A DNA stretch of 64,000 bases from assembly GCA_950295325.1 (NCBI GenBank), contig OX485803.1:42733554-42797553 (forward strand), given 5' to 3'. The notes under the pieces were generated by a model, which was not told the origin of the DNA, ran no database searches, and saw only the letters and a list, made by a program, of their open reading frames with translations. How positions within the stretch are numbered: the stretch's first letter is position 1; each line of letters starts with the position of its first letter. The translations under genes were made by a program, and so were the position numbers. This document shows positions 14,919-60,428 of this stretch, in pieces. The stretch comes from Polytrichum commune (taxonomy: Eukaryota; Streptophyta; Polytrichopsida; Polytrichales; Polytrichaceae).

Positions 14919-14922
14919 GCCT
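14919..14922. repeat. Target-site duplication GCCT, left copy
   Basis: GCCT directly abuts the TGTC end of the left LTR and is repeated at 24785-24788 directly after the GACA end of the right LTR. Four bases is one fewer than usual for Ty3/gypsy elements, so coincidence cannot be excluded. Confidence 0.6.
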
Positions 14923-14938
14923 TGTCGTGTAAACTAAG
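14922..14938. repeat. 17-bp direct repeat at outer end of left LTR
   Basis: TTGTCGTGTAAACTAAG occurs here and again at 15365-15381, immediately inside the other end of the same LTR. The right LTR has a different sequence at the matching position (see findings). Confidence 0.85.
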
Positions 14939-15363
14939 TTTCTCTCTCCAAACTTAAGAAACTAAAATGTCTCCTTACAAAGCTTAAGAAACTCTAAAAT
15001 TCACACACAAGAGTCAAGCTATCTCTCACTCCACGAAGGGAGAATCCAAGAGTGCAAGTGGTGGAGAAAGAATGCAAAGGCTTTACTCATAATCTACTAC
15101 ACCATAGCCATGAGAAAGCAACAACAAGCTCTCTCTCTCTCAAAACACACTCACAAGACTTGACTTGACAACAATGGCAAGTCAAGAGGCCTTCCTCTCC
15201 ATACAACCCCAATCCTATGTGGAGTTCATCCATGGAGTGGATGAACAACTAACTAGGACTCCCAATGGAGTCCGTTATTCATCCCAACACACATGGGCTC
15301 CTAGTGGAGTCCATTTACTCCTAAATTGACGTGACTTAGCCCCCGATGTTACCTCACGTGACA
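14923..15363 (-). repeat. 3' LTR (left copy)
   Basis: About 441 bp, beginning TGTC and ending GACA on the plus strand. From 14939 onward it matches the right LTR with only four differences, all transitions. Its outermost 15 bases do not match the other LTR, and the internal side lacks the polypurine tract expected before a 3' LTR. It contains a CACGTG (G-box-like) motif close to the end that starts the sense LTR. Confidence 0.88.
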
Positions 15364-15364
15364 G

Positions 15365-15381
15365 TTGTCGTGTAAACTAAG
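15365..15381. repeat. 17-bp direct repeat, inner copy
   Basis: Exact second copy of the 17-mer at 14922-14938. It occupies the place, next to the 3' LTR, where a polypurine tract would be expected. Confidence 0.85.
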
Positions 15382-15796
15382 ATCGTTAAACACAACAGAT
15401 CGAGTGTTGTTGTCAACATCAATTAGCAAAATAAAATAGCAAACTAAAATGCTAAACAACCACCTCTTCAAGTGCCCCCACTAGCAGATAAGGAGCCCCT
15501 CCAATCGGCTAGGAACAAACACACTCATCGGTAGAGTTGTTGAACATGATGAAGTTGTTGCTACATCTATACATATTTAATTGGGTAGTAGTAATCAAAG
15601 GAATTAAACTCGTGATTGACAAAGCAATCCAAGAACTGTAGGCTGGGTGCAATGTGAGCCCCATCCTTAATCGCCTTCAACAATTAATGTTGAATTCTTA
15701 GATAACTCTTTCAATGTGGTCTTAATTCCATAAAATTTCCAACCAACTAAATAACAACTTCGCTACTAAAACATGAGGTAAACATCCACAAAATTC
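15382..15796 (-). other. 3' untranslated region of the retrotransposon
   Basis: About 415 bases between the end of the PHD reading frame and the 17-bp repeat. No further domain is seen. A pyrimidine-rich patch on the plus strand near 15461-15480 is the nearest thing to a polypurine tract on the sense strand, but it is about 100 bases from the LTR. Confidence 0.55.
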
Positions 15797-15982
15797 TCAA
15801 TCATGACCATTAACGGCCACGGAATGAGAGGCTTTCCAACAACGAGGACAAACCCAATTGCCAGAAGGAAGAGTCAAAATGGGAGGTGTCAAATATGCCA
15901 TGTGCCATCCACGTTGACATTGGTCGCACAATAACATTGTTGCAGCTCCTTTCTTCTCTCCACAAACATAACAAGGGAGATC
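15797..15982 (-). pseudogene. PHD-type zinc finger, C-terminus of the retrotransposon polyprotein
   Basis: Directly after an in-frame TAG at 15983-15985 the frame stays open for 61 codons. It reads CYVC, then 11 residues, CDQC, GWH, and about 15 residues later WVCPRC (15973-15839). This is the C4HC3 ligand pattern of a PHD finger, including the tryptophan before the last Cys pair. The Cys expected three residues after the His is Tyr here, a single G-to-A change. PHD fingers commonly read histone H3 tails, so a role in choosing or marking chromatin targets is plausible but inferred. It lies just after the integrase C-terminal domain, where other elements carry chromodomains. Confidence 0.78.
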
Positions 15983-16195
15983 CTATGGTACAACCGCCAA
16001 CTCGGAATGCACAGAGCCGTCGATGGGAAGGTGACATGGAGCACAATTCTTTGAATGCTCACGACATTCCCGTCCATCCTTGCCTTCAAGCAATAATATA
16101 CCACTTGGCAAGACATCTTTTACCCGCAAAATCGTGCGTCCAGCCTTGACATCCAATGTCGTAGGCGCCTCCTGTTGCAAGTAAACATAATCCCC
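15983..16195 (-). pseudogene. Integrase C-terminal domain, frameshifted
   Basis: The frame after the one-base loss at 16192-16195 reads through TLDVKAGRTILRVKDV, PSGILLLEGKDG and NCAPCHLPID, then stops at 15983. The 'LRV..V.PSGvLlLeG.dG' pattern is familiar as the small beta-barrel downstream of the integrase core in several Ty3/gypsy lineages. The same line continues in frame into the PHD finger, so the two were one polypeptide. The upstream integrase frame instead runs on out of frame to 16120. Confidence 0.75.
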
Positions 16196-17262
16196 TTGGA
16201 AAATCTACGAACCTGAGGTCGATAAGCTCCACTGCGGATCCGGGCATACCGTAATGTATCACGATGTTGAGCAATATTTAAGTTCTCCATAGCCATAGGC
16301 ATGGCCTTTTGGAAGAATGTTGCTCGGTCATGAAGACATTGAGCCCAAACATCTGGATCATCCAAGTTTACCACGGGAGCCAATTTCTCTCGCACCGAGC
16401 TAGGTAAAATTGGTTCCCGTCCATACAAGAGTTGGTAAGGACTATAGGATGCCAAAGATGCTTGCCTGCTGAAACGATAACCCATTGCTATCCATGGTAA
16501 CATCAAGTCCCAATCGCGATGGTTGCCATGAAGCAATCCATACTTCCGCAAACCGCGCTTAACTGTCTGAACAACTCGTTCAGCTAAACCATCTGCCTCA
16601 GGGTGATATCTAGAAGTTGTCCGATGATCAATCAAAGCCTTGGTACACAAAGCCTCGAAAGATCCAAGGAATTCTCTCCCTTGATCCGTCAACACCTCTG
16701 CAGGTGCTCCAAACCGTGCCAAAACTCGATCAAGAAATGCCATAGCCGCCAATTCTGAGGAATTTTGGGGAAGAGCCACGAGTTCAATCCACTTACTAAA
16801 ATGCTCCACCATCACAAGCACATACTTGGAACCACGTGGAGTGATAGTAAGCGGTCCGGCAAAATCCAAAGACCAACAATATCCCAAACCCATAATAGGT
16901 AAAGGCTGAAGTTGAGGTGACAGAGTATTAAAACTTGACCTGACCCGGTCACATACTTCACACCAAGAAACATAAGTGGCAACCTGTTGATACATACCAG
17001 TCCAGCAATATTGGTTGCGCAACATAGAGTGCGTCCTTCGCACTCCAAAATGTCCAAGCTCCTCGTGCACTTGCCGCACCAAAGAAACTCTTTGATCTGG
17101 CATTGGAACGATGCGCCTCGTTCCGTTCGGCCACATACGAAATAACAAGCTGTTTGCCCAACGAAACCTTGTTATCCGGTGACTAACTCTATCTCGCTCC
17201 ATAGCAGATAGTCTAAGAGGAAATATCCCTTGTTGAAGTTTGTGCAAGACCGCCTGGTCTTC
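16120..17262 (-). CDS. Integrase (zinc-binding HHCC and DDE core)
   Basis: Inserts element cDNA into host DNA. Numbered from a TTG codon at 17247 (codon 1 of 375), the zinc-binding domain is H61, H66, C96, C99. The catalytic triad is D128 (SLDFAGP), D188 (LTDQG) and E223 (HPEADGLAE). Spacing between the last two is 34 residues, one fewer than the usual 35, by hand count. All three acidic residues are present and the core has no stop. A TGA at 17263-17265 separates it from RNase H in the same frame, so it was part of the polyprotein. The last 25 or so codons, after about 16195, are out of frame because of a one-base loss in a run of four G (sense strand). The copy cannot make an intact integrase. 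Confidence 0.92.
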   Translation of the reverse strand, partial: EDQAVLHKLQQGIFPLRLSAMERDRVSHRITRFRWANSLLFRMWPNGTRRIVPMPDQRVSLVRQVHEELGHFGVRRTHSMLRNQYCWTGMYQQVATYVSWCEVCDRVRSSFNTLSPQLQPLPIMGLGYCWSLDFAGPLTITPRGSKYVLVMVEHFSKWIELVALPQNSSELAAMAFLDRVLARFGAPAEVLTDQGREFLGSFEALCTKALIDHRTTSRYHPEADGLAERVVQTVKRGLRKYGLLHGNHRDWDLMLPWIAMGYRFSRQASLASYSPYQLLYGREPILPSSVREKLAPVVNLDDPDVWAQCLHDRATFFQKAMPMAMENLNIAQHRDTLRYARIRSGAYRPQVRRFSKGIMFTCNRRRLRHWMSRLDARFCG

Positions 17263-18702
17263 TCACACATCACTAACAACGAGAGATTTATCAACCTCCT
17301 CATCTTGTTCTTCTACAAGGATCTCAGCAGCCAATCCCAACATCATTGTGAGATATGTGGCAGCATGCCAACCTGGCACTGCCTCCCTATCACAATCTCC
17401 ATGCCACCTGGCTCCAGTTAAATCCTCATCTGAAGGACTTGGATTGCGAGACAATCCGTCTGCATCCAAGTTGGCAATTCCTGCTCGGTGAACAACTTCA
17501 AAATCATATTCTTGAAGTAACAATGCCCACCTAGCAAGTTTCCCGGTGAATTTATCTGATTCCATAAGCCATTTTAAAGGCTGATGATCAATCACCAAAG
17601 TAAACTTTTGCCCATACAAATAAGGTAAAAAATGTGCAATGGCCCAAACGGCTGCCAAGGCCTCGCCTTCATAAGAAGAATAATTAGATTCAGCACTATT
17701 ATTGCTTCTAGATGCATAAGCCACCACATATTTTTTTCCCTCTTCATCTTTCTGTGTCAATACCGCTCCCAATCCCACTGCACTCCAATCCGTGTGCAAT
17801 TGAAAAGCTCTAGACACATCCGGGCGTCGAAGCACTGGCGCTGAACCGAGCCTCTGCTTCAATGTATCAAATGCATGTTGTTGTTCCCGACTCCAAATCC
17901 ATGGTTGGTCTTTCCCCGTGAGAATGGTAAGAGGTTTGGCAATCAAACTAAAGTTTTTGACAAGCCTCCTATAATAATTTGACAATCCTAGAAATGCACG
18001 AAGCCGTGGTACATCACTAGGTGTGGGAATTTTGTACAAAGCATCCACCTTCGCCTGTTGCACACCAAGACCGCCAGGAACAATCATGTGGCCTAAATAG
18101 GGCAATTGATCATGGAAAAACTTACATTTTCCATGATGTAAACGGAGTCCCCACCGTTGAAGTCGTTCAAATACCGCTTGCAAATGTCTCACATGATCCT
18201 GTGGACTATTACTAAAGATGATAACATCATCAATGTAACATCTAGCAAACGGCAAACCAGCCAATAATTGGTCCATCACCCGTTGAAATTCAGCCGGTGC
18301 ATTCTTAAGACCAAATGGCAGAAATTTCCAATGATAAAGTTGATCCTTGCCATCTTTATCAATTCCCCAAAATGCGGTCTTCACCCGATCACCCAACAAC
18401 AAAGGTAATTGGTGATAACCAGACCTCAAATCCAGAGTGCTGAAGATTCTAGAAAATCCCAGTGCATTAAACAACTCCTCCGGCATCGGCATTGGATATC
18501 GATCCGACTTGGTCTTGCGGTTGACTGGACGATAATCACCACACATCCGTTTTTCCGTCCAGTTGCCAAAGATATTCTTCTTTGACGGCATAACCGTGGT
18601 ACAAGCATACTCTCCATTGGAGAGTTCAATCAATTCCGTTGCCAATAACTCTTGACATCGAGTTTGAACACCCAACCTTTCAGAGGTACTAAGTCTGTAC
18701 GG
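17263..18702 (-). CDS. Reverse transcriptase and RNase H
   Basis: Copies element RNA into DNA. Numbered from a TTG codon at 18675 (470 codons), reverse transcriptase shows D82 (LDLRSGYHQ), FGLKNAPAEFQ near 121-131 and catalytic YIDD at 147-150. The connection reads FLGLSNYYRR, typical of Ty3/gypsy. RNase H follows with D296 (TDWSAVGLG), E336/E338 (YEGEALAAVW), D363 (VIDHQPLKWL) and the HRAGIANLDADGLSR end. All key residues are present over the whole length. The stop at 18703-18705 falls a few residues before the domain and the one at 17263 just after it, so the enzyme body is open although the polyprotein is broken. Confidence 0.95.
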   Translation of the reverse strand, partial: PYRLSTSERLGVQTRCQELLATELIELSNGEYACTTVMPSKKNIFGNWTEKRMCGDYRPVNRKTKSDRYPMPMPEELFNALGFSRIFSTLDLRSGYHQLPLLLGDRVKTAFWGIDKDGKDQLYHWKFLPFGLKNAPAEFQRVMDQLLAGLPFARCYIDDVIIFSNSPQDHVRHLQAVFERLQRWGLRLHHGKCKFFHDQLPYLGHMIVPGGLGVQQAKVDALYKIPTPSDVPRLRAFLGLSNYYRRLVKNFSLIAKPLTILTGKDQPWIWSREQQHAFDTLKQRLGSAPVLRRPDVSRAFQLHTDWSAVGLGAVLTQKDEEGKKYVVAYASRSNNSAESNYSSYEGEALAAVWAIAHFLPYLYGQKFTLVIDHQPLKWLMESDKFTGKLARWALLLQEYDFEVVHRAGIANLDADGLSRNPSPSDEDLTGARWHGDCDREAVPGWHAATYLTMMLGLAAEILVEEQDEEVDKSLVVSDV

Positions 18703-18939
18703 CTATCTGAAAATAGGGTGGTCGTCCTCGAGTTGAATACGAACAGGTTTACCTTTATATCCTTCAAGATCATGAAGACTAAAGGCAAAACAATTATGGT
18801 AAGAGCAAATAAATGCCCGTACCTTTCGTGCTTCGGCACCAGTAAGCTTTGGCCCCACTTCAATTGGCCAATCGTCAAACTCCGTGGTTTCCTTTTTCAT
18901 AGAAGGATTGCCACTTGGTGCCAGCACAGCCTGTGATCG
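18703..18939 (-). pseudogene. Linker and N-terminal lead of reverse transcriptase
   Basis: Open between stops at 18940 and 18703, in the same frame as both neighbours. It ends in CFAFSLHDLEGYKGKPVRI and EDDHPIF, the usual segment just before reverse transcriptase in Ty3/gypsy polyproteins, where the line would normally continue into the PYRLS motif. Here a TAG interrupts, and PYRLS follows at once in frame. The upstream part (SMKKETTEFDDWPIEVG) is linker of unknown role. Confidence 0.85.
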
Positions 18940-19281
18940 CTAGTCCGTGGAGAGGGCAACACCTTTGCCCCCATCATCTGTACTTGAATCCAAATGCGTA
19001 TCCTCTCCACTACAATCAGTTTGTGTAGCTAAATAGCTACCCACATATGAAGTATCACCAAAAAATAGAAGTGGAAAAATTTTATGGGCCTCCAACTTCC
19101 CAAACTCTTGGGCCAAAGCCGAAAAAACACGTTGGGCTCGAAGCTCTTCCGCAACATGAAGTTTTAAAGGAAATAATCCCTCGGTGTCATTGACCTCAAT
19201 GTGATCCTTGGATTGCGGCTCCATTGCCCCTTGACCATTGTTCTCTGCCCTCAGAGTAAGCAATTGGTCATCCATACGTTG
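18940..19281 (-). pseudogene. Linker between methyltransferase and reverse transcriptase
   Basis: About 113 codons in the common polyprotein frame, bounded by TAA at 19282-19284 and TAG at 18940-18942. It is hydrophilic at both ends (SKDHIEVNDTEG; DCSGEDTHLDSSTDDGG) with a helical, hydrophobic centre (LHVAEELRAQRVFSALAQEF). No known domain is recognised. It may be a spacer cleaved by the element protease. Confidence 0.7.
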
Positions 19282-20373
19282 TTAAGCAACAAGACAAATT
19301 CCAATTATCCACACAATGCTGTTAAGATCCATAGCTTGCCCCAATAGGAAACGTCTCTGACCTTCCTCAAGCCCGTGAGCAGCCGTGGTACCTGTAAGAA
19401 AACCCATGGCGCGTTCCCGCTCATCTGCCGTAGGCTCCTCATAAGTTTGGGATTTTGAATCCCAAACCATGCCAGGTCCACGAGATCGAAATGCAAAAGA
19501 CTGTGGATATGTCACAAAAGTAGGTAGTGCACCTTTCGGAATGCCCACCTTATTAAGTAATGCAAATGGCAAGGTGTCATCCTTGGTAACTGCCAAGGAA
19601 ACACGATGATCATCTAAAATGTCATCCACCTTGCGATCCATAAGGCGGGGAATGCGGGCAATCGCCGCTGAAAGCACCCGAGGTGATACCAAGTTGGTCA
19701 AAAACCAACGAGGCCGATGAGCAAAGGATCCCAAAGATGCAGCATCCAGAAATGTTGGAGTATCCAGAATTTGGTTAATGTACTCACCATCCTTCACCAC
19801 TTTGTGCCGGGTATCACCCAATAATGGTACATTTTCGAAAATGTACCCTGGCGGAGTTGATTGGTGGGTAAACCACCATTGCGTCAATTGCGTCAAATCC
19901 GCAAACAAACTAGACCTAGGATCATCCAATCCCTGGCCAGTTCCTGCCCGCGAATTGCCTTGACAAGGCCATCCTGCAAGAATCAAATCCACGTGGCCCA
20001 ACCTTCTCAAATCCTCATCACTAATCATAGTGACATCTTGAGGAAGTTGACCACAACATCCATGAATGGCAGAGGCTGACAATTGTGCGGGGTATCTCAA
20101 CAACAATTGTTGGATGTGGTGTCGGACGGCTCTGTTGGCTGCATACCCATTGTCCACATGAATATATCCCCAAACTGTAATTCCAGCTTCCAACACTGCC
20201 GCCAAACCTGTGCCAATGCCTCCAAAGATCTCCACAAGGACAATACCTTCAGGTGATGGTTGCCAACGAATGGGTTGAGCAAAAGAAAATGAGGATAAAG
20301 TTGGAGGTGCCTCTCCAAGCTCCAAATCCGCTACAATGTGTCGACAATGGTCGGATAACTCCTTAGGAGTTCG
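19282..20373 (-). CDS. Cytosine-C5 DNA methyltransferase domain in the retrotransposon
   Basis: Predicted to transfer a methyl group from SAM to cytosine in DNA. Numbered from a TTG at 20325 (347 codons): motif I EIFGGIGTG at 32-40 (SAM binding), motif IV GWPCQGNS at 118-125 with catalytic C121, motif VI FENVP at 163-167, motif VIII RPRW at 204-207, motif IX-like ERERAMGF at 302-309, and motif X GQAMDLNSIVWI at 329-340. All are present in canonical I-to-X order. Plant DRM enzymes have permuted motifs, so this is not a DRM copy. AHRPRWF and the spacing after PCQ recall DNMT3-type enzymes. The target-recognition part is short. It is flanked by in-frame stops at 20374 and 19282, in frame with protease and reverse transcriptase. 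No host-type reader (PWWP, ADD, UBA) is attached. Confidence 0.93.
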   Translation of the reverse strand, partial: RTPKELSDHCRHIVADLELGEAPPTLSSFSFAQPIRWQPSPEGIVLVEIFGGIGTGLAAVLEAGITVWGYIHVDNGYAANRAVRHHIQQLLLRYPAQLSASAIHGCCGQLPQDVTMISDEDLRRLGHVDLILAGWPCQGNSRAGTGQGLDDPRSSLFADLTQLTQWWFTHQSTPPGYIFENVPLLGDTRHKVVKDGEYINQILDTPTFLDAASLGSFAHRPRWFLTNLVSPRVLSAAIARIPRLMDRKVDDILDDHRVSLAVTKDDTLPFALLNKVGIPKGALPTFVTYPQSFAFRSRGPGMVWDSKSQTYEEPTADERERAMGFLTGTTAAHGLEEGQRRFLLGQAMDLNSIVWIIGICLVA

Positions 20374-20412
20374 CTATGGTGGAGGTGGATCCTTGAAATG
20401 TCGAGCATGAAT
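20374..20412 (-). other. Protease/methyltransferase junction with two in-frame stops
   Basis: Between the TAA at 20413-20415 and the TAG at 20374-20376 lie about a dozen codons in the same frame, including a run of four prolines. The continuous frame on both sides shows that protease and methyltransferase belonged to one polyprotein before the stops arose. Confidence 0.8.
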
Positions 20413-21825
20413 TTAAAAAGATGGTAAAAATTGTTGTTCTGCCGCATTACAAGTGTAGTCCATTGTTTCCTCCAATAAAACTGGAGCACAAGGCAAATCT
20501 GCAACTGAACCGCTGCAACCAAACATTGCCTCCGCAACCATAGTCATAGCAGTGGCTGCAAATGTGACGGGAATAAATACCTTCCTCCCATCTCCAGTGG
20601 ACCATCCCGGTCTAATCCATGCCTCTTCCGTCCAATTATCCAAACCAAAGCCAAGTGGGTAAAGAGCTTGCTGACCAACAAGTATATCATAGTTGGTAGC
20701 ATTAGTAACAACACACTTCATTGACAAATGAGTGTAAGTAGGCCCTGCCCCCACATGAAAAATCAAACGTAGAGGTGCCTTGGTGTAACCTGTTGCACGT
20801 TCAGTGCCCCCTACTGAAGTCACAATAGTGAATGGACAAGGATCCAAGCTTGCTGGCGTCAATCCAAGACTGTCAGCAAGTCCTTTGCCAATCATAACCG
20901 GTTGAGCACCGGAATCCATCATAACTCTCAGTGGTGTAGCACGGATAGTGGGCATATCCGTGCGTGAAACGACAAACAAAGATTTGTCGTTCATCAGCCG
21001 TACAACTCCAGGTTGCAAATTATGCCGTTCGCGAGCAGGCCTTGCAGAAATGTCTGCAAGATATGCCGCTCCCGACGCATAATTCGAAAATGACGTATCC
21101 ACTGCTGAAATTGATGCTGGAGGAATATCAGTTTGCTTACCAAAAGCAATGATCGCCGCATCCGCAAGACTCGCTCGCAAATTGGCTAAGTCCTCCACCT
21201 CCTCAGCCACAGGTACGTCAACCACAGCTTGGGATACTTGAAGGGATGGCAAATCCGCCTTACCTTCTAACATTCTCCCAGCTAAATGAAAAACTGCAGC
21301 AGGCTTGAAATTCGAAGCCATAAACTCCGAACCCGAGAAAATTGACATATGGAGAATTTTATATGCCAATGCCTGCGTAACATCCTTCGAGATGGAATCC
21401 CCATCTCTCAAAGGTACAGGGTTTTTAGCCCCAACAACAGTAGTGTCTACCAATCCAAATGAAAGAGGTAAACGTGTTTGACCAATTTGATCAGCTGGTC
21501 CGGCATGGCGAGGATGTAGCATCTCGTTGCTACCACCACTCGTGGAAGCCACCGCATCTGCCAATGTTTGTGAGCGGGTAGAAGCCGCCGCCACCACCTC
21601 TCCAGCTGCTCCAAACATATACATGTCCGAACCCGAGGTGCCACCACCCACATGCGGCTCATAAATTTGAGCAAAAGATGCAGAAGATTTGAGCTTTTGC
21701 TCAAGCTCTGCCACCTTAGCCCTCAAGACTCTGCTCCCTTGGAGACTTTCCAGTGACATAACTGGCATGCCGCATCTTCGGATGAAGTTGGAAACAATGA
21801 TCCACATCGTGATTAGTGCCACCAC
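20413..21825 (-). CDS. Aspartic protease with long N-terminal region
   Basis: Cuts the element polyprotein. In the 470-codon frame numbered from 21825, the active-site loop VMMDSGAQPVMIG has D304, S305, G306, and the second hallmark ILVGQQALYPLG lies at 381-392. A likely coiled coil (VLRAKVAELEQKLKS) is at 33-47. The roughly 240 residues between coil and protease are alanine/serine-rich and not recognised. It overlaps the end of gag by 110 bases in a frame shifted +1 (or -2). That may be a programmed gag-pol frameshift, normal at this border, or a mutation. An in-frame TAA ends it before the methyltransferase. Confidence 0.88.
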   Translation of the reverse strand: MVALITMWIIVSNFIRRCGMPVMSLESLQGSRVLRAKVAELEQKLKSSASFAQIYEPHVGGGTSGSDMYMFGAAGEVVAAASTRSQTLADAVASTSGGSNEMLHPRHAGPADQIGQTRLPLSFGLVDTTVVGAKNPVPLRDGDSISKDVTQALAYKILHMSIFSGSEFMASNFKPAAVFHLAGRMLEGKADLPSLQVSQAVVDVPVAEEVEDLANLRASLADAAIIAFGKQTDIPPASISAVDTSFSNYASGAAYLADISARPARERHNLQPGVVRLMNDKSLFVVSRTDMPTIRATPLRVMMDSGAQPVMIGKGLADSLGLTPASLDPCPFTIVTSVGGTERATGYTKAPLRLIFHVGAGPTYTHLSMKCVVTNATNYDILVGQQALYPLGFGLDNWTEEAWIRPGWSTGDGRKVFIPVTFAATAMTMVAEAMFGCSGSVADLPCAPVLLEETMDYTCNAAEQQFLPSF

Positions 21826-23038
21826 AATGGCTACATTTCAATTGTCTCTTCTTAGAATTGTCCCCTGCCCTTACTGGTTCCATCTTTTGTTTTAATTTTC
21901 CCAAAGGCTGAGTTTTCTTCTTCTTAGGACAATTGGGATCATTCTTCGAATGACCAGCTTCTCCACAACCCCAACAATGCAAAATCTTTTGCTCCTTGAC
22001 GGGTTGAGTCTCAGCTAAACTACTAGTAGCTGTGACAATTCTTCTTGGTTTCGGACTCTCTGTCATCCAAGATACCATATCCGTGGCATCATGTTGGCAA
22101 AGAGCCCGATCACATCTCTCAACCACGGCAAACGCTTGTGCAAGCGTAGCTCGGCCCTCGTAGTCGAGGATAATCCGAGGTGATGCCAACTCAAGTAGCC
22201 GCTTGTCAATCTTAGACAAAAAGATTTTAACAAGCTGACTCTCAGCAAAAACACCTCCCGACTCCACCGCAAATCGCGGGAGTCGCGTATACATGGTCCG
22301 TGGAGTATCATCCTTCTTTCGGCGAAAATCCTGGATGCGTTGCATCTGGTCTCGCCGAAACCCACCATACTCCACTTCCAAATGTGCGACAAATTCAGTA
22401 AGGGGATTAAACAGAGGTGGTGGACCAACAGCCGTCAATGCTGCCTGTGTAGCACGTGCCACCCGTGAAAGGGTTGCCGTGCTACTGCTAGCCACCATTG
22501 GCCCAAGTGCCAGTTCCGTGTCCTTAGACTCCGCCGGCGATTCCTCCTCCTTTAAGGTGGGTGGAGCTAAGGTAGCAACCGCCCCATCCTTAAGGGCTGA
22601 AATGAGCTCAACCCGAGCCTCCCAATACTGCTCCACCTCCCGAAGTTGTCGCTGATGACCCTCCGTCCAGCGTTCATAAGTTTGGAGTGCCTCATACTCC
22701 AAATGCTGAGGCAGAAGTTCAAAGGCATACCAATCATTGAAATTGGAAGACCTTTGGCGTTTCTCCTTGATCCAGGTACGAAACCGGAGTTTCCAATCGG
22801 GCAAGGAAATGCCCCCAGCTCGACCTGAAAACCGATCACGCACTGAATTGTGGCGATCATCCTCCATTTCGTCGAACGTGCCGACACTCCAAATCCGAAG
22901 CCTACTAGTAGTGTCCAACGCCGAAATAGGCTCAAAAGCCTCGTTGGTATCTACCTCTGGCTCAAGATTTGTGGTATGCACGTCCTCCAAGTAATATGGT
23001 GATGGAGATCGATAATATCGGCTCCTAGTTTGCACCAT
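21716..23038 (-). CDS. Gag, nucleocapsid with two zinc knuckles
   Basis: Structural protein that packages element RNA. It is 440 codons from an ATG at 23038 (MVQTRSRYY). The body around residues 240-330 (FVAHLEVEYGGFRRDQMQRI, FLSKIDKRLLELASP) has the helical texture of retrotransposon gag. Near the C-terminus are two zinc knuckles: C355-C358-H363-C370, with two extra residues before the last Cys, and a canonical C402-C405-H410-C415. The chain between them is Lys-rich, fitting RNA binding. This is the only reading frame of the element that starts with a good ATG and is unbroken. Its sense-strand leader is about 1.3 kb long. Confidence 0.92.
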   Translation of the reverse strand: MVQTRSRYYRSPSPYYLEDVHTTNLEPEVDTNEAFEPISALDTTSRLRIWSVGTFDEMEDDRHNSVRDRFSGRAGGISLPDWKLRFRTWIKEKRQRSSNFNDWYAFELLPQHLEYEALQTYERWTEGHQRQLREVEQYWEARVELISALKDGAVATLAPPTLKEEESPAESKDTELALGPMVASSSTATLSRVARATQAALTAVGPPPLFNPLTEFVAHLEVEYGGFRRDQMQRIQDFRRKKDDTPRTMYTRLPRFAVESGGVFAESQLVKIFLSKIDKRLLELASPRIILDYEGRATLAQAFAVVERCDRALCQHDATDMVSWMTESPKPRRIVTATSSLAETQPVKEQKILHCWGCGEAGHSKNDPNCPKKKKTQPLGKLKQKMEPVRAGDNSKKRQLKCSHCGGTNHDVDHCFQLHPKMRHASYVTGKSPREQSLEG

Positions 23039-23196
23039 AAAATAATCACTTGAGTACCTGCAACTATCTACAAGGTAATGGCAACCTGCACCTGTTGCGG
23101 GCTATCTAAATGGCAATCCCTTGCCAAATGCCAAGTGTTTATGCCCCCAGAATTCCAAAATTGTGCAAAGGTTTGAGATTGGTAATTAAAATGAAA

Positions 23197-23620
23197 AATC
23201 AGCGTTGAAAAGGCTCATTTCCAAGGTGATTATGGACTCCAATCAACAAACTAAGTGCACCAATGGACTCCTAGGCAGATTTCACACAAATTAGGCTCAA
23301 ATTTCACTCCGTTCGGAGTTAATTTGCTCCCAAAAACAAAAATCAGCGTTGAAATTAATAATTTCAGCAATGATTTTGAATTCCAATCAACAATCCAATT
23401 ACACCATTGGATTCCTTGGCAAATTTCACACAAGATAGGCTCAAATTTCACTCCGTTCGGAGTTAATTTGCTCCCAAAAACAAAAATCAGCGTTGAAATT
23501 GCTAATTTCAGCAATGATTTTGAATTCCAATCAACAATCCAATTACACCATTGGATTCCTTGGCAAATTTCACACAAGATAGGCTCAAATTTCACTCCAA
23601 TCGGAGCTAGTATGCCCCCA
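23197..23620. repeat. 144-bp tandem repeat, three copies
   Basis: Unit starts marked by AATCAGCGTTGAAA at 23197, 23341 and 23485 are exactly 144 bases apart. Copies 2 and 3 are nearly identical, copy 1 is more diverged and copy 3 is slightly short. Because 144 is divisible by three, frames stay open through the array on both strands, but the repeated peptides resemble nothing known and probably mean nothing. Confidence 0.9.
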
Positions 23621-23824
23621 AATTTGAACCTCAAAGTGTGTGAGAAGGGGATGCCAAGTTTGAAAGGTGAAAGTAAAAATGTAAAAATAATAAAAATAAA
23701 AATAAAGTAATAATAAAGTAAAAGTAAAAAGTAAAAATAAGTGTTTTATTTTTGTTGTTGAAATCAAAAAAAATAAAAAATAAAAAAAATAAAAACAAAG
23801 GTAAGGTTAACTTACCTTTAAGAC

Positions 23825-23965
23825 AAGCCAACCAGGCTTGGCCAGCGTCCGCCCGCCCGTGGGCCTGGCCGACGCCCGCCCGCCTGGCCCGCTCCGTTGG
23901 CGCCTGGGCCCGGCCTGCGTACGCCCGCCCCGGCCCCGGGATCTGCCGCCGCCCGGTGCAGAATT
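23825..23965. other. GC-rich island in the retrotransposon leader
   Basis: A run of about 140 bases rich in CCCGCC and GGCCTGG phrases, between A+T-only sequence on one side and an A29 run on the other. It is by far the most GC-rich stretch in the window. It may form stable RNA structure for packaging, initiation or dimerisation (inference). Confidence 0.7.
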
Positions 23966-23984
23966 GGAGCTCCAAGAGTGTCCG

Positions 23985-24001
23985 TGGAGCTCCGGAGCTC
24001 C

Positions 24002-24030
<29 letters not shown>
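23985..24030. repeat. 16-bp palindrome followed by A29
   Basis: GGAGCTCCGGAGCTCC is a perfect palindrome. A further copy of its core (TTGGAGCTCCAA) lies about 20 bases away. A run of 29 A follows at 24002-24030. Confidence 0.85.
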
Positions 24031-24032
<2 letters not shown>

Positions 24033-24341
24033 GGATTTTAAGTTTGGTTTGTGTTTGTTTGTAAATTAAAAAAAAATTAAACTTTGCTTTTACAAATTGC
24101 AAGCAAGAATGATGTGACTTGAGAATCTTGAGACCAAATGGAATCTCAAGATTCAACCATCAACACTTGAAGAAAACACAAAGAGACAACAAAAGAAAAA
24201 TGGGAAGATTTCTCTCAAAATCTTCTTGAGGGTTGCAAGAAATGACAAACTAAGCTTTCAAACACTTGTATCACTCATTTACTCTCAATACTGGGCCATT
24301 CTAGCTCATAAATACAACCAAAAATGAAAAATTTGAACAAT

Positions 24342-24784
24342 TGTTGCCAAGTATGAGAGTTTCTCTCTCCAAGCTTAAGAAACTAAAATGTCTCCTTACA
24401 AAGCTTAAGAAACTCTAAAATTCACACACAAGAGTCAAGCTATCTCTCACTCCACGAAGGGAGAATCCAAGAGTGCAAGTGGTGGAGAAAGAATGCAAAG
24501 GCTTTACTCATAATCTACTACACCATAGCCATGAGAAAGCAACAACAAGCTCTCTCTCTCTCAAAACACACTCACAAGACTTGACTTGACAACAATGGCA
24601 AGTCAAGAGGCCTTCCTCTCCATACAACCCCAATCCTATGTGGAGTTCATCCATGGAGTGGATGAACAACTAACTAGGACTCCCAATGGAGTCCGTTACT
24701 CATCCCAACACACATGGACTCCTAGTGGAGTCCATTTACTCCTAAATTGACGTGACTTAGCCCCCGATGTCACCTCACGTGACA
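24342..24784 (-). repeat. 5' LTR (right copy)
   Basis: About 443 bp, the promoter-bearing LTR of the element on the minus strand. It starts TGTCACGTGAGG in sense orientation and is paired with 14923-15363. A CACGTG core just inside the start resembles a plant G-box and a (CT)n-like patch lies mid-LTR. No clear TATA box was identified. The far end (24342-24358) does not match the other LTR, so that boundary is estimated. Confidence 0.85.
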
Positions 24785-24788
24785 GCCT
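24785..24788. repeat. Target-site duplication GCCT, right copy
   Basis: Matches 14919-14922 and abuts the GACA terminus of the right LTR. Confidence 0.6.
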
Positions 24789-27275: not shown

Positions 27276-27780
27276 GGCCACTTCACACACAAGTCAAGAA
27301 CCGTGACCATTAAACTATGAGAGCTCAAAAGCAAGTGTCCGAAGGCCGTCCCAACACACCTCCAAAATCATGTAGTGTGGTCACGGACCCTCAAGTGTAG
27401 TGTGAAGCCACATGTGACCGGGCCCTCAACCAAATGCCATTTTAGTGAATTCCTATCCAAGCAGGTCCTCACACATGATTAAACAGAATAAACCAACGGT
27501 TATGAACGTTCAGAGTGCCATGGTCTCCCAATGATTTTGTGGTAGACCTACCTCCAACAGGTGGTTGTTGAAAAGAGTCCAAGTGACCATGAACCATGAT
27601 CCATTCGATGCCATGTAGGAATCCACGTGGACTTCAAATCCATCTTGCATTCCCACACTCCGTCCGTTGGTCCCTCAAGCGTAGTGTGAAGCGAACGTGG
27701 ACCGGCTCCACCGTCTCCACCAATGGGAGTGCTTGAAGTGTAGTGGTCAGGGGCTCTCAGTCTCGTGTGGGAAGTGGCCC
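27276..27780 (-). mobile_element. 505-bp TIR element, copy 2 (Mutator-like candidate)
   Basis: Inverted relative to 1331-1836 and similar along its whole length. The flanking nine bases (CTAACTCAT before, CTGATTCGT after) agree at 6 of 9 positions, and the three differences are all transitions. This would fit a decayed 9-bp target duplication as made by Mutator-like transposases. No transposase is encoded. Confidence 0.6.
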
Positions 27781-33030: not shown

Positions 33031-33371
33031 TAGAGTTATCCTTTAACTCAAGCGGAGTTTTAGTAGGGAGTTGGTTGTTTCGCATGCATAACTTTCCATG
33101 TTGGGTAAGTTGTGGGTGCATGCTTGGAGTCAATGTGGAGGTTTGAACAAAGGACCTTCCATATTAGTTCATTGGGTACCAAACTCATTTTGGCATTGCC
33201 AAGAGACGCCAAAATGAGTTTGATACCCAATGAACTAATATGGAAGGTTCTTCGTTCAAACCTCCACATTGACTCCAAGAACGCACCCACAACTTACCGA
33301 ACATGGAAAGTTATGCATGCGAAACAACCAACTCCCTATTAAAACTCCGCTTGAGTTAAAGGATAACTCTA
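33031..33371. repeat. 341-bp near-perfect hairpin (foldback element)
   Basis: Arms 33031-33194 and 33208-33371 are each 164 bp and differ at about seven positions by hand comparison, around a 13-base loop. Both strands carry a nearly identical open frame as a by-product of the symmetry, not as evidence of coding. A diverged relative lies at about 55990-56215. A transcript across it would form one long duplex suited to Dicer-like cleavage (inference). Confidence 0.93.
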
Positions 33372-57246: not shown

Positions 57247-57743
57247 TGGTAGTGAGTGTCACGTACACCTCGAATGAGGGTATAGTGACACATATTATGC
57301 ATGTGACATTAAATATTATCATAAATGTGTGTAGTCAACATACTCATTCCTGGATATTAGTGATAACGTGCACTTGACCACCAAGTGTCATGAGGTGACA
57401 CTAACGATGAAGTTGTTGGTCATTAGTGTAACCTAGCATACGTCTCAAAAGAGGGTATAATGACACATATTATGCTTGTGACATTGAATACCATAAACAG
57501 TGTAGTCAACATACTCATTCCTGGATATTAGTGATAACGTGCACTTGACCACCAAGTGCCATGAGGTAACACTAATGGTGAGGTTGTTGATCATTAGTGT
57601 AACCTAGCATACGCCTCAAAAGAGGGTAAAGTGACACGTATTACACATGTGACACTAAATTCCATAAACATTGTAGTCAACGTACTCATCCCAAGATATT
57701 AGTGATGAAGTGCACTTGACCACCAAGTTCCATGAGGTGACAC
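57247..57743. repeat. 171-bp satellite, about three copies
   Basis: CACTTGACCACCAAG occurs at 57371, 57542 and 57713, exactly 171 bases apart, within units that also carry GGTGACACTAA, CCTCAAAAGAGGGTA and a TCCATAAACATTGTAGTCAA-like segment. A further unit lies at 57970-58255 and a diverged single unit near 62470-62630. Confidence 0.88.
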
Positions 57744-57969
57744 TTATGTGCAGGAAGAACCGTCGGTTAGTTGCAGATGAACCGGTTAAGTTCGAGAAAT
57801 AATTGGTTAAAGTTCAAGACTTCAGGAAATTTACCGATCGTTTTAGATGAATCTATAGAATATACCTCAAATGAATGAAAGAAAAACCGGAAGATGTCAA
57901 CATGTATTTGGTTGGATTTAGAATCACTACGATCTTGACCGACTATGCCCAAAGACTTCCCGGGCACTG
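57744..57969. mobile_element. hAT-like MITE inside the satellite, 226 bp
   Basis: Interior phrases of the family are intact. It is flanked by a perfect 8-bp duplication GGTGACAC (57736-57743 and 57970-57977), which is also satellite sequence, so the insertion point is exact. The left tip is mutated (TTATG for CAATG); the right tip ends CACTG. Confidence 0.88.
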
Positions 57970-59156: not shown

Positions 59157-60287
59157 TCATAGCTCTACAGCGCAAGAGATTTGTGCAACTCCGACGAAGT
59201 CTTCAGCCACAGGACAAGCCTCCCACCTACCTTTCCTACGCTTGGAGGCAGGAAAAGTGTAAATCAAGGTTCGGTACTGTTCATCATCTTCATTCCAGGG
59301 GCCGGTGACAGCAAGAGCCTTACCAAGCCCGGTAGCACAAGCAAGGGAAGAGATTCCTGTCTCCCCCTCGGGCAAGAAATCCAACAGCTCCCATCGATTC
59401 CTGTCCTCACAGTACACCAAAACCTGTCGATCGTGAAAGGCCACAAGGCGATCCGCCACAGCTACAATGGTGCCAGGCCGCACAGTGCACATGTTCTCCA
59501 CCATATTCCAACGTCCCTCTTGCTCGTTCCAAAACTCAGCACTCGTCACAAAATTACACTCCACCGAAGAGTCGTAACCGCTAATGGCATAAAACTTCCC
59601 GTTCAAAGTTGCACCGATGCACTCGTCACGCAAAACAGCCAAGTTAGGTAAAGCCTCCCAAGCATTTGTGTCCAGGTTGTAAACCTCCGCGGAAGGTAAG
59701 GCTGTTTTGGTGTTATCATGGCCTCCTGCAACGAACACACGGCTTCCCACCGCGGAACATGCGAAGAACGATCTTGTCGTAGGCATATCGGCACCCCGCT
59801 CCCAAGACCATTTGCAAAAGTCGAATACATACACCCTTCGAAGAGTTTCCCATGTGGCAGGGTGCCATCCACCGATGATGACGAGCTTGCCTTCACCTGC
59901 TGCGAACCGGCAGAAGAGAGGGACCCCTAGGTCTTTGAAATCGGGGATGGGAGGAAGCCTATCCCATTTGCGATCATCTTGCTCGTTCAAGACGCTGATG
60001 AAGTAAACCGGGTGTGATTGTGTCTCGGAGCGATCCGGTGTCGCTTGTAAGATGCACAGGAAATGGCCTGTCGTGCCTTCCCGTTTGCGTTGGGAGTAGT
60101 ATTCGGGGCTGGATACCAGCTCCTTCCACTTGCGTGACACTCCGTGAAGTAGGCCATGTGAGTGTGGGGAGACTCGAAGTAAACACTCCCTGGCTACGTC
60201 GTCTGGGAGTGATGGTATGTATGGTTGCGATACTAACTGCCGTTTCTTGCTGCCAATGATGTTATTCTTACTTTGCTCCTCCGCCAT
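59157..60287 (-). CDS. KMD-like: F-box/kelch protein of the KMD (KISS ME DEADLY) type
   Basis: Predicted substrate adaptor of an SCF ubiquitin ligase. The 376-residue chain has an F-box at about 24-68 (IPSLPDDVARECLLRVS ... WKELVSSPEYY), then kelch-type repeats with double glycines at 139-140 (VIIGGW) and 188-189 (VFVAGGHD), an aromatic W six to ten residues before each repeat boundary, and a diverged last blade. LPDDVARECLLR matches the start of Arabidopsis KMD F-boxes. Those proteins direct breakdown of type-B cytokinin response regulators and of phenylalanine ammonia-lyase; the same role here is inference. The length is close to the family (about 350-360). I start at ATG 60287 in good context (GGCTATGGCG). 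An upstream in-frame ATG at 60428 would add only a microsatellite-coded Arg-Glu run. The gene is intronless and not truncated. Confidence 0.88.
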   Translation of the reverse strand: MAEEQSKNNIIGSKKRQLVSQPYIPSLPDDVARECLLRVSPHSHGLLHGVSRKWKELVSSPEYYSQRKREGTTGHFLCILQATPDRSETQSHPVYFISVLNEQDDRKWDRLPPIPDFKDLGVPLFCRFAAGEGKLVIIGGWHPATWETLRRVYVFDFCKWSWERGADMPTTRSFFACSAVGSRVFVAGGHDNTKTALPSAEVYNLDTNAWEALPNLAVLRDECIGATLNGKFYAISGYDSSVECNFVTSAEFWNEQEGRWNMVENMCTVRPGTIVAVADRLVAFHDRQVLVYCEDRNRWELLDFLPEGETGISSLACATGLGKALAVTGPWNEDDEQYRTLIYTFPASKRRKGRWEACPVAEDFVGVAQISCAVEL

Positions 60288-60320
60288 AGCCACCGACTTA
60301 TACCCCCCGCTACCCACTCC

Positions 60321-60322
<2 letters not shown>

Positions 60323-60386
<64 letters not shown>
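60323..60386. repeat. (CT)n microsatellite in the F-box gene 5' leader
   Basis: About 32 CT units (GA on the sense strand) starting roughly 36 bases upstream of the chosen ATG. GA-rich leaders of this kind are common in plant genes and can influence transcription or translation. Confidence 0.92.
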
Positions 60387-60390
<4 letters not shown>

Positions 60391-60428
60391 AAGATTCTCT
60401 CTGTGACAGACTCCTCCCCTCGCAACAA

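Follow-up and report, generated by a model that had tools for sequence, protein, structure and literature searches.

Retrotransposons that encode cytosine-C5 DNA methyltransferases have been described from Klebsormidium nitens and Symbiodinium. According to the main text of de Mendoza et al. (2018, PMC5890265), KnitGypsy-Dnmt3 of K. nitens combines Gypsy domains with a DNMT3 methyltransferase in its Pol polyprotein and with DIRS-like repeats, and this methyltransferase is under purifying selection; its capture is described there as independent of the captures seen in SymbioDIRS-Dnmt3 and SymbioLINE-Dnmt of Symbiodinium, the first of which encodes an enzyme that methylates CG in yeast. Repeats in the order A1-B1-A2-B2 are known from PAT elements, as presented in the part of PMC4157794 that was available. 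The DNA analysed here, a 64,000-nt stretch of the moss Polytrichum commune (GenBank assembly GCA_950295325.1, contig OX485803.1, positions 42,733,554 to 42,797,553 of the forward strand; hereafter the window), holds a single copy of a retrotransposon that carries both a methyltransferase (MT) and a PHD finger. The copy belongs to an MT-carrying family that is conserved and recently mobile, and both domains are constituent parts of this land-plant family, as the original prediction, made from the letters of the window alone, had proposed.

Coordinates are positions in the window, and the element is read on the minus strand, on which its domains follow one another in the order gag, protease, MT, reverse transcriptase (RT), RNase H, DDE integrase, and PHD finger. 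The parts of the copy are as follows (ORF, open reading frame; LTR, long terminal repeat).

14923..24784, minus strand: retrotransposon copy, decayed, A1-internal-B1-A2-(B2 remnant) with TG...CA bounds, delimited by terminal repeats, boundaries, target duplication, and colinearity with genome copies
24785..24788, minus strand: 4-bp target-site duplication AGGC (element orientation), 5' end
24353..24784, minus strand: A1 repeat (5' LTR-like), by alignment to A2; end CTCAT
23188..23622, minus strand: 144-bp unit repeated three times in tandem, within the 5' leader
21716..23038, minus strand: gag ORF with two CCHC knuckles, by ORF reading
20413..21825, minus strand: protease region with MMDSGAQP (DSGA) at 20887-20928; Asp_protease_2 E=1.2e-4, slightly under the curated cut-off
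19285..20325, minus strand: C5 cytosine MT domain, predicted DNMT3-type; PF00145 E=4.8e-11 for the window MT
19957-19977 and 19825-19839, minus strand: MT motifs IV (PCQ) and VI (ENV), respectively
18940..18942, minus strand: UAG between MT and RT, in the context CGA-UCA in the window copy
17263..18675, minus strand: RT and RNase H, with YIDD at 18214-18243; PF00078, PF17917, PF17919
16120..17247, minus strand: integrase, H2C2 and DDE core; PF17921, PF00665
15830..16048, minus strand: PHD finger region, the finger itself at ~15839-15979, by sequence reading, with the Pfam match taken from copy L009
15473-15481, minus strand: purine-rich tract GTGGGGGCA, directly before B1
15366..15472, minus strand: B1 repeat, 107 bp
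14937..15363, minus strand: A2 repeat (3' LTR-like), its 3' end truncated by a few nt in the window copy
14923..14936, minus strand: B2 remnant, last bases only
14919..14922, minus strand: 4-bp target-site duplication AGGC, 3' end

The predicted C5-methyltransferase between protease and RT was borne out by its motifs, which stand in order (I, IV, VI, VIII, and IX/X are present in the window copy), and by its Pfam match, and the PHD-type finger announced behind the integrase was found as well. Protease, MT, RT, and integrase share one reading phase; thus, the claim that the first three lie in the same frame holds as far as phase is concerned, but it overlooked the UAG between MT and RT, which is conserved in the family. 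The gag of the window copy is in a different phase, and a Pfam scan of this ORF gave no match. The window copy is broken: the frame changes between gag and protease, stops interrupt it between protease and MT, where MT ends, and ahead of the PHD finger, and one zinc-ligand Cys of the finger is replaced by Tyr. The element had been placed at 15797..24784, of which the 5' limit at 24784 stands, whereas the 3' end lies approximately 870 bp further, at 14923. The retrotransposon is flanked by two inverted pairs, of 127 and 158 nt with 85-87% complementarity, whose members lie approximately 25.5 kb apart at 1450-1823 and 27286-27661.

The 408-Mb genome contains at least 117 MT matches including that of the window, which were scored out of 586 candidates; a Pfam-based search, in which 123 of 352 candidates were scored, reached an additional subfamily. 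Twenty copies of approximately 9.5 kb each were fetched from the 116 non-window matches, selected for a top place among the matches and for the length of their open frames, which favours young copies, and a further 17 older copies were fetched for the MT and stop region only. All 20 share blocks with the window at approximately 97% identity, and they are spread over six of the seven large contigs that make up about 406 of the 408 Mb. Seven such contigs would agree with the base number x=7 of Polytrichaceae. In each of them the continuous block that holds the MT is 4.8-8.4 kb long. A nested insertion of an unrelated methyltransferase gene, which had been named beforehand as the refutation of the prediction, was looked for and is ruled out, since the MT and its flanks form one continuous block in 20/20 copies. 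Over 13 copies, 3713 sites of A1 and A2 were compared (68-434 in each copy, gaps uncounted), and only 12 differ; eight of these 13 copies have no substitution at all between the two repeats, so the family moved recently. In the window copy, A1 and A2 show four mismatches in 428 aligned columns.

The MT is nearest to DNMT3 both in sequence profile and in fold, and its motif order is not rearranged; on these comparisons it is a DNMT3-type enzyme. A DRM-type identity gave a weaker match in the profile comparison, and a HhaI-type identity was weaker in both profile and fold, although the structure list used for the fold held neither DRM nor CMT and by itself excludes nothing. No PWWP or ADD match was found by Pfam on ORF1 of copy L009, where the upstream matches are of protease type only. 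The catalytic Cys and Glu are kept in 21/21 young copies, and variants shared among copies are biased towards synonymous changes about as strongly in MT as in RT, which shows apparent purifying selection on the MT like that on the RT. Across relatives the domain persists at 35-83% identity. Singleton C>T changes per site and copy amount to 0.0089 in CG, 0.0095 in CHG, and 0.0057 in CHH, compared with 0.00096 for T>C; this footprint would fit copies methylated in every context, and host enzymes can explain it.

In the family copies the MT is the last domain of the gag-protease frame and is followed by UAG, after which RT continues in the same phase. The stop reads UAG-CAR-YYA in 43/43 copies read, the window excepted. 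Among 36 family copies the next six bases are CAA-UCA in 35 and CAA-CCA in one (37 copies were fetched, with L041 not covered at this position), compared with CGA-UCA in the window. Copies L152 and L156 have CAA-UCA, whereas a second subfamily of the same genome, with 62-63% MT identity, has CAA-UUA (L153, L154, and L155) or CAG-UUA (L151); an element from another assembly, L128 (see below), again has CAA-UCA. The flanks of the stop thus diverge, while the hexanucleotide varies only at permitted positions (CAA/CAG; UCA/CCA/UUA). A TAA between RNase H and integrase was also considered as a second family-wide stop and was ruled out, as only L009 has it among the copies aligned there. According to the accessible part of PMC2754532, CAR-YYA after UAG is essential for readthrough in tobacco mosaic virus (TMV). 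The moss family has the same stop and hexanucleotide as this TMV-type (Type I) readthrough; the difference is that its stop sits between the MT and RT of a retroelement, where readthrough is predicted. Fourteen long relatives (P0116-P0129), covered as proteins, all end shortly after the MT. An RNA stem predicted to start approximately 13 nt past the stop scores z -3.2 in L009 and -4.5 in L128 versus dinucleotide shuffles, but is only suggestive; the stop window of L128 is the lowest of its pol windows.

The ends of the element are unusual. Flanking sequence shows that it starts with A1 and ends with B2, so that the whole is A1-internal-B1-A2-B2. The A2|B2 joint is exact in 13/13 copies of a first set and in 10/12 readable ends among 20 further copies, eight of which were unreadable. 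L059 and L071 carry single substitutions beside the joint, L063 lacks 28 nt of B there, L075 has no B at its 3' end, and the window copy lacks bases on both sides; in L071 (G000:C1:45100992-45101492) the 3' end reads A2-B2-B, the extra B unit being joined via one G. B1 and B2 agree in length, at either 105 or 107 bp, within each of eight copies, with 0-2 mismatches between them. The B1|A2 junction reads ACACGACA-GC-TGTCACG, in L128 likewise, and a G-rich tract precedes B1 in the moss family and L128 alike. Target duplications of 4 bp are exact in 8/9 copies and in the window (9/10), with L011 matching at three of four bases; for four of the 13 copies the 5' flank was not in hand. A primer-binding site was not recognised after A1 on inspection by eye. 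The DDE integrase, the gag-protease-RT-RNase H-integrase order seen in the Pfam matches, and the short target duplication are those of Ty3/Gypsy elements, whereas two simple direct LTRs at both ends are not found, as the element ends in B2. The tyrosine recombinase of the DIRS order is also absent from the Pfam matches, which include the integrase PF00665 instead. Split direct repeats together with a DDE integrase in a Gypsy-type element depart from textbook LTR-end formation.

A PHD finger is present in 18/20 fetched copies, and PF00628 matches that of L009 with E=6.1e-11 and 42.6 bits against a cut-off of 24. The solved chains closest to it by sequence are those of CHD4, PHF12, Lid, PHF21A, and ATXR5, several of which are readers of histone H3 unmethylated at K4. 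By analogy, the finger of the element may bind the H3 tail. Chromoviruses, i.e., chromodomain-bearing Gypsy elements, also have a histone-reading module after the integrase; the moss element has a PHD finger in place of the chromodomain, for which no Pfam match was obtained on the ORFs scanned.

Both domains recur in diverged elements, namely L128 and the polyproteins P0134, P0135, and P0136. In P0134 the MT lies between protease and RT and shares one frame with RT, whereas P0135 and P0136, both ENA proteins, have the order RT-RNase H-MT-integrase-PHD; in P0136, which has no Pfam MT match, the MT was recognised from an alignment with 37% identity over 87%. Given this different position, the MT either moved or was captured twice. 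In a eukaryotic gene model (P0100), MT is joined to PHD. L128 (CADCWO010000201.1) is a contig filed under a cyanobacterial metagenome-assembled genome (MAG) that holds a retroelement of the same kind and has a 127-bp end overlap, and P0002, labelled as a protein of Candidatus Obscuribacterales, is likewise a relative; such MAGs seem to carry plant DNA. Bacterial or phage contamination as the origin of the MT was rejected, because the best bacterial match, L128, is itself such a retroelement, for which reason the MAG is taken as the contaminated party. The other bacterial and phage matches cover the domain only in part, at 22-52% identity. Proteins related to the MT were also found in Sphagnum, Marchantia, and Calypogeia; gag or protease sequence accompanies the MT in rows of Marchantia and Sphagnum (P0130, P0057), whereas Calypogeia is represented by an MT protein only. 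In an MT tree of 71 rows, rooted at the midpoint without an outgroup because the domain coverage of bacterial and phage ORFs was too small, the window family forms a supported clade together with L128 and unnamed rows, the Sphagnum, Marchantia, and Calypogeia rows stand together in another clade, and the elements with MT between RNase H and integrase are placed separately, on long branches. A K. nitens 'putative retrotransposon protein' (P0112), not included in the tree, matches the moss MT with 33% identity over 60% (E 6.4e-15).

Among published elements, KnitGypsy-Dnmt3 is the nearest relative and already has the core idea, a Gypsy element that combines an MT with DIRS-like repeats; in view of its description in PMC5890265, the claim of a 'distinct system' was too strong. 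As far as that main text allows comparison, the DNMT3-type MT in a Gypsy polyprotein and the DIRS-like A-B-A-B repeats are both shared by the moss family, which differs in its moss host, the leaky-stop context between MT and RT, the PHD finger after the integrase, and the description of 4-bp duplications and A|B joints; the word PHD is absent from the main text, the only text by which KnitGypsy was compared. SymbioDIRS-Dnmt3 and SymbioLINE-Dnmt share with the moss element, by the same source, the combination of retrotransposon and C5 methyltransferase, but are a DIRS element with tyrosine recombinase and a LINE, respectively. The A1-B1-A2-B2 repeats of PAT elements, as set out in the accessible part of their description, recur in the moss element, which is set apart from PAT and other tyrosine-recombinase elements by its DDE integrase and target duplications. 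In the open-licence PMC literature, no report was found of a DNA methyltransferase carried by a land-plant retrotransposon. As far as the listed literature shows, the land-plant host, the PHD finger, the leaky stop that follows the MT, and the repeat-joint evidence are new.

It appears, with a probability slightly better than even, that this Gypsy-type moss family makes a DNMT3-type MT within its Gag-protease product and, by readthrough, a minor RT-RNase H-integrase-PHD product. Readthrough of the UAG at a low rate would place the MT at the Gag level and package it in the particle, where it could methylate freshly made cDNA ahead of or during integration; new copies would thus be marked in advance, at lower cost to the host and with less conflict with it. 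The PHD finger on the integrase might steer insertion by binding H3 tails, probably those unmethylated at K4. Plus-strand DNA would start at B1, giving a cDNA repeat of B-GC-A; the cDNA ends would then be joined end to end (A|B), and the integrase would cut the internal B|GC|A junction to yield A-internal-B-A-B. Self-methylation by the MT and histone reading by the PHD finger are both inferred here from sequence. Several observations weigh against parts of this scheme. The single MT-RT frame of P0134 and the position of MT behind RNase H in P0135 and P0136 mean that dosage at the Gag level is not general. Every copy was located through its MT, so copies without it would be unseen. The shared-variant test was non-significant for PHD (ratio 0.74, p=0.69) and for protease, linker, post-MT, and connection, while the integrase signal was lost when CpG-type changes were removed (p=0.24), and two of the 18 PHD fingers contain stops. 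In six tests against synonymous-codon shuffles the RNA stem is weak, with z of -1.5 to -2.9, and the stop window of L022 is outside the six lowest of 50 pol windows. The exactness of most A2|B2 joints is not what simple end joining would lead one to expect. No element-coded enzyme is required for the C>T footprint, and, in PMC5890265, the KnitGypsy MT produced no methylation in yeast, a result that its authors judged inconclusive because DNMT3B failed too.

Some of these observations suit other explanations. The MT might act on host chromatin or methylation, for example as a competitor or partner of the host DNMT3 or DRM enzymes, rather than on its own cDNA, its location in the polyprotein serving only expression. 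DNMT3 enzymes work as oligomers, the fold of the MT is closest to DNMT3, and conserved catalytic residues with purifying selection would suit any enzymatic role; nonetheless, relatives hold the MT inside the polyprotein at two positions, kept with Gag or Pol rather than freed, and this alternative is considered rather unlikely. That the MT is a passenger, i.e., a captured host gene carried without benefit to the element, is disfavoured and seems highly improbable: host methylation alone would account for the C>T footprint, and the algal relative was inactive in the inconclusive yeast assay of PMC5890265, but the synonymous bias of about RT strength, the catalytic residues kept in all 21 young copies, and the persistence of the domain across relatives all argue otherwise. 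The UAG, in turn, might be an ordinary end of ORF1, with pol expressed from spliced or re-initiated RNA and CAR-YYA retained by descent only. Copies of one family do share motifs by descent; however, this one varies only at permitted positions in two subfamilies and L128 while its flanks diverge, RT follows in phase, and the decayed window copy alone departs from the motif, which makes an ordinary stop distinctly unlikely. More serious, although short of an even chance, is the possibility that the A-internal-B-A-B structure is inherited in the RNA and restored by DIRS-like templating and not by joining of cDNA ends. The PAT elements of PMC4157794, at least in the part available, have the same repeat order, joints are exact in 23/25 readable ends, and L071 has an extra B, whereas the DDE integrase with 4-bp target duplications, the purine-rich tract just before B1, and the trimmed joints of the window and L063, centred on A2|B2, weigh against templating.

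A wider form of the preferred scheme, in which the MT marks the element's own cDNA, would extend it to a green plant and algal DDE-integrase lineage that arrives pre-methylated, with a DNMT3-type enzyme carried in the particle at the dosage of Gag (set in mosses by a leaky UAG of TMV type), a PHD finger choosing chromatin, and integration via a B|GC|A junction resembling a minicircle junction, all as one ancient package. This is speculative and, on the present evidence, unlikely, but if true, a writer, a reader, and an unorthodox integration substrate would belong together. MT and PHD do form a recurrent package in diverged elements. Mosses are a group with genetic models. A recently mobile DNMT3-bearing retrotransposon in such a land plant opens methylation biology to experiment, including the question of whether a mobile element methylates itself; the predictions are readthrough at the UAG, methylation of the cDNA, and integration via the internal repeat junction.

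The window also holds features apart from the retrotransposon. A near-perfect inverted repeat at 33031-33371, with two 164-nt arms that are 96% complementary and separated by a 13-nt spacer, may be a foldback element or a source of long-hairpin RNA. A tandem array of a 171-bp unit in 2.8 copies lies at 57264-57744, and a single-exon F-box/kelch gene at 59160-60287, within the interval 59157-60428, has a best match of 94% identity to an ENA protein, its nearest named records being from the mosses Ceratodon purpureus (50% over 97%), Sphagnum balticum (51% over 63%), and Physcomitrium patens (50% over 68%).

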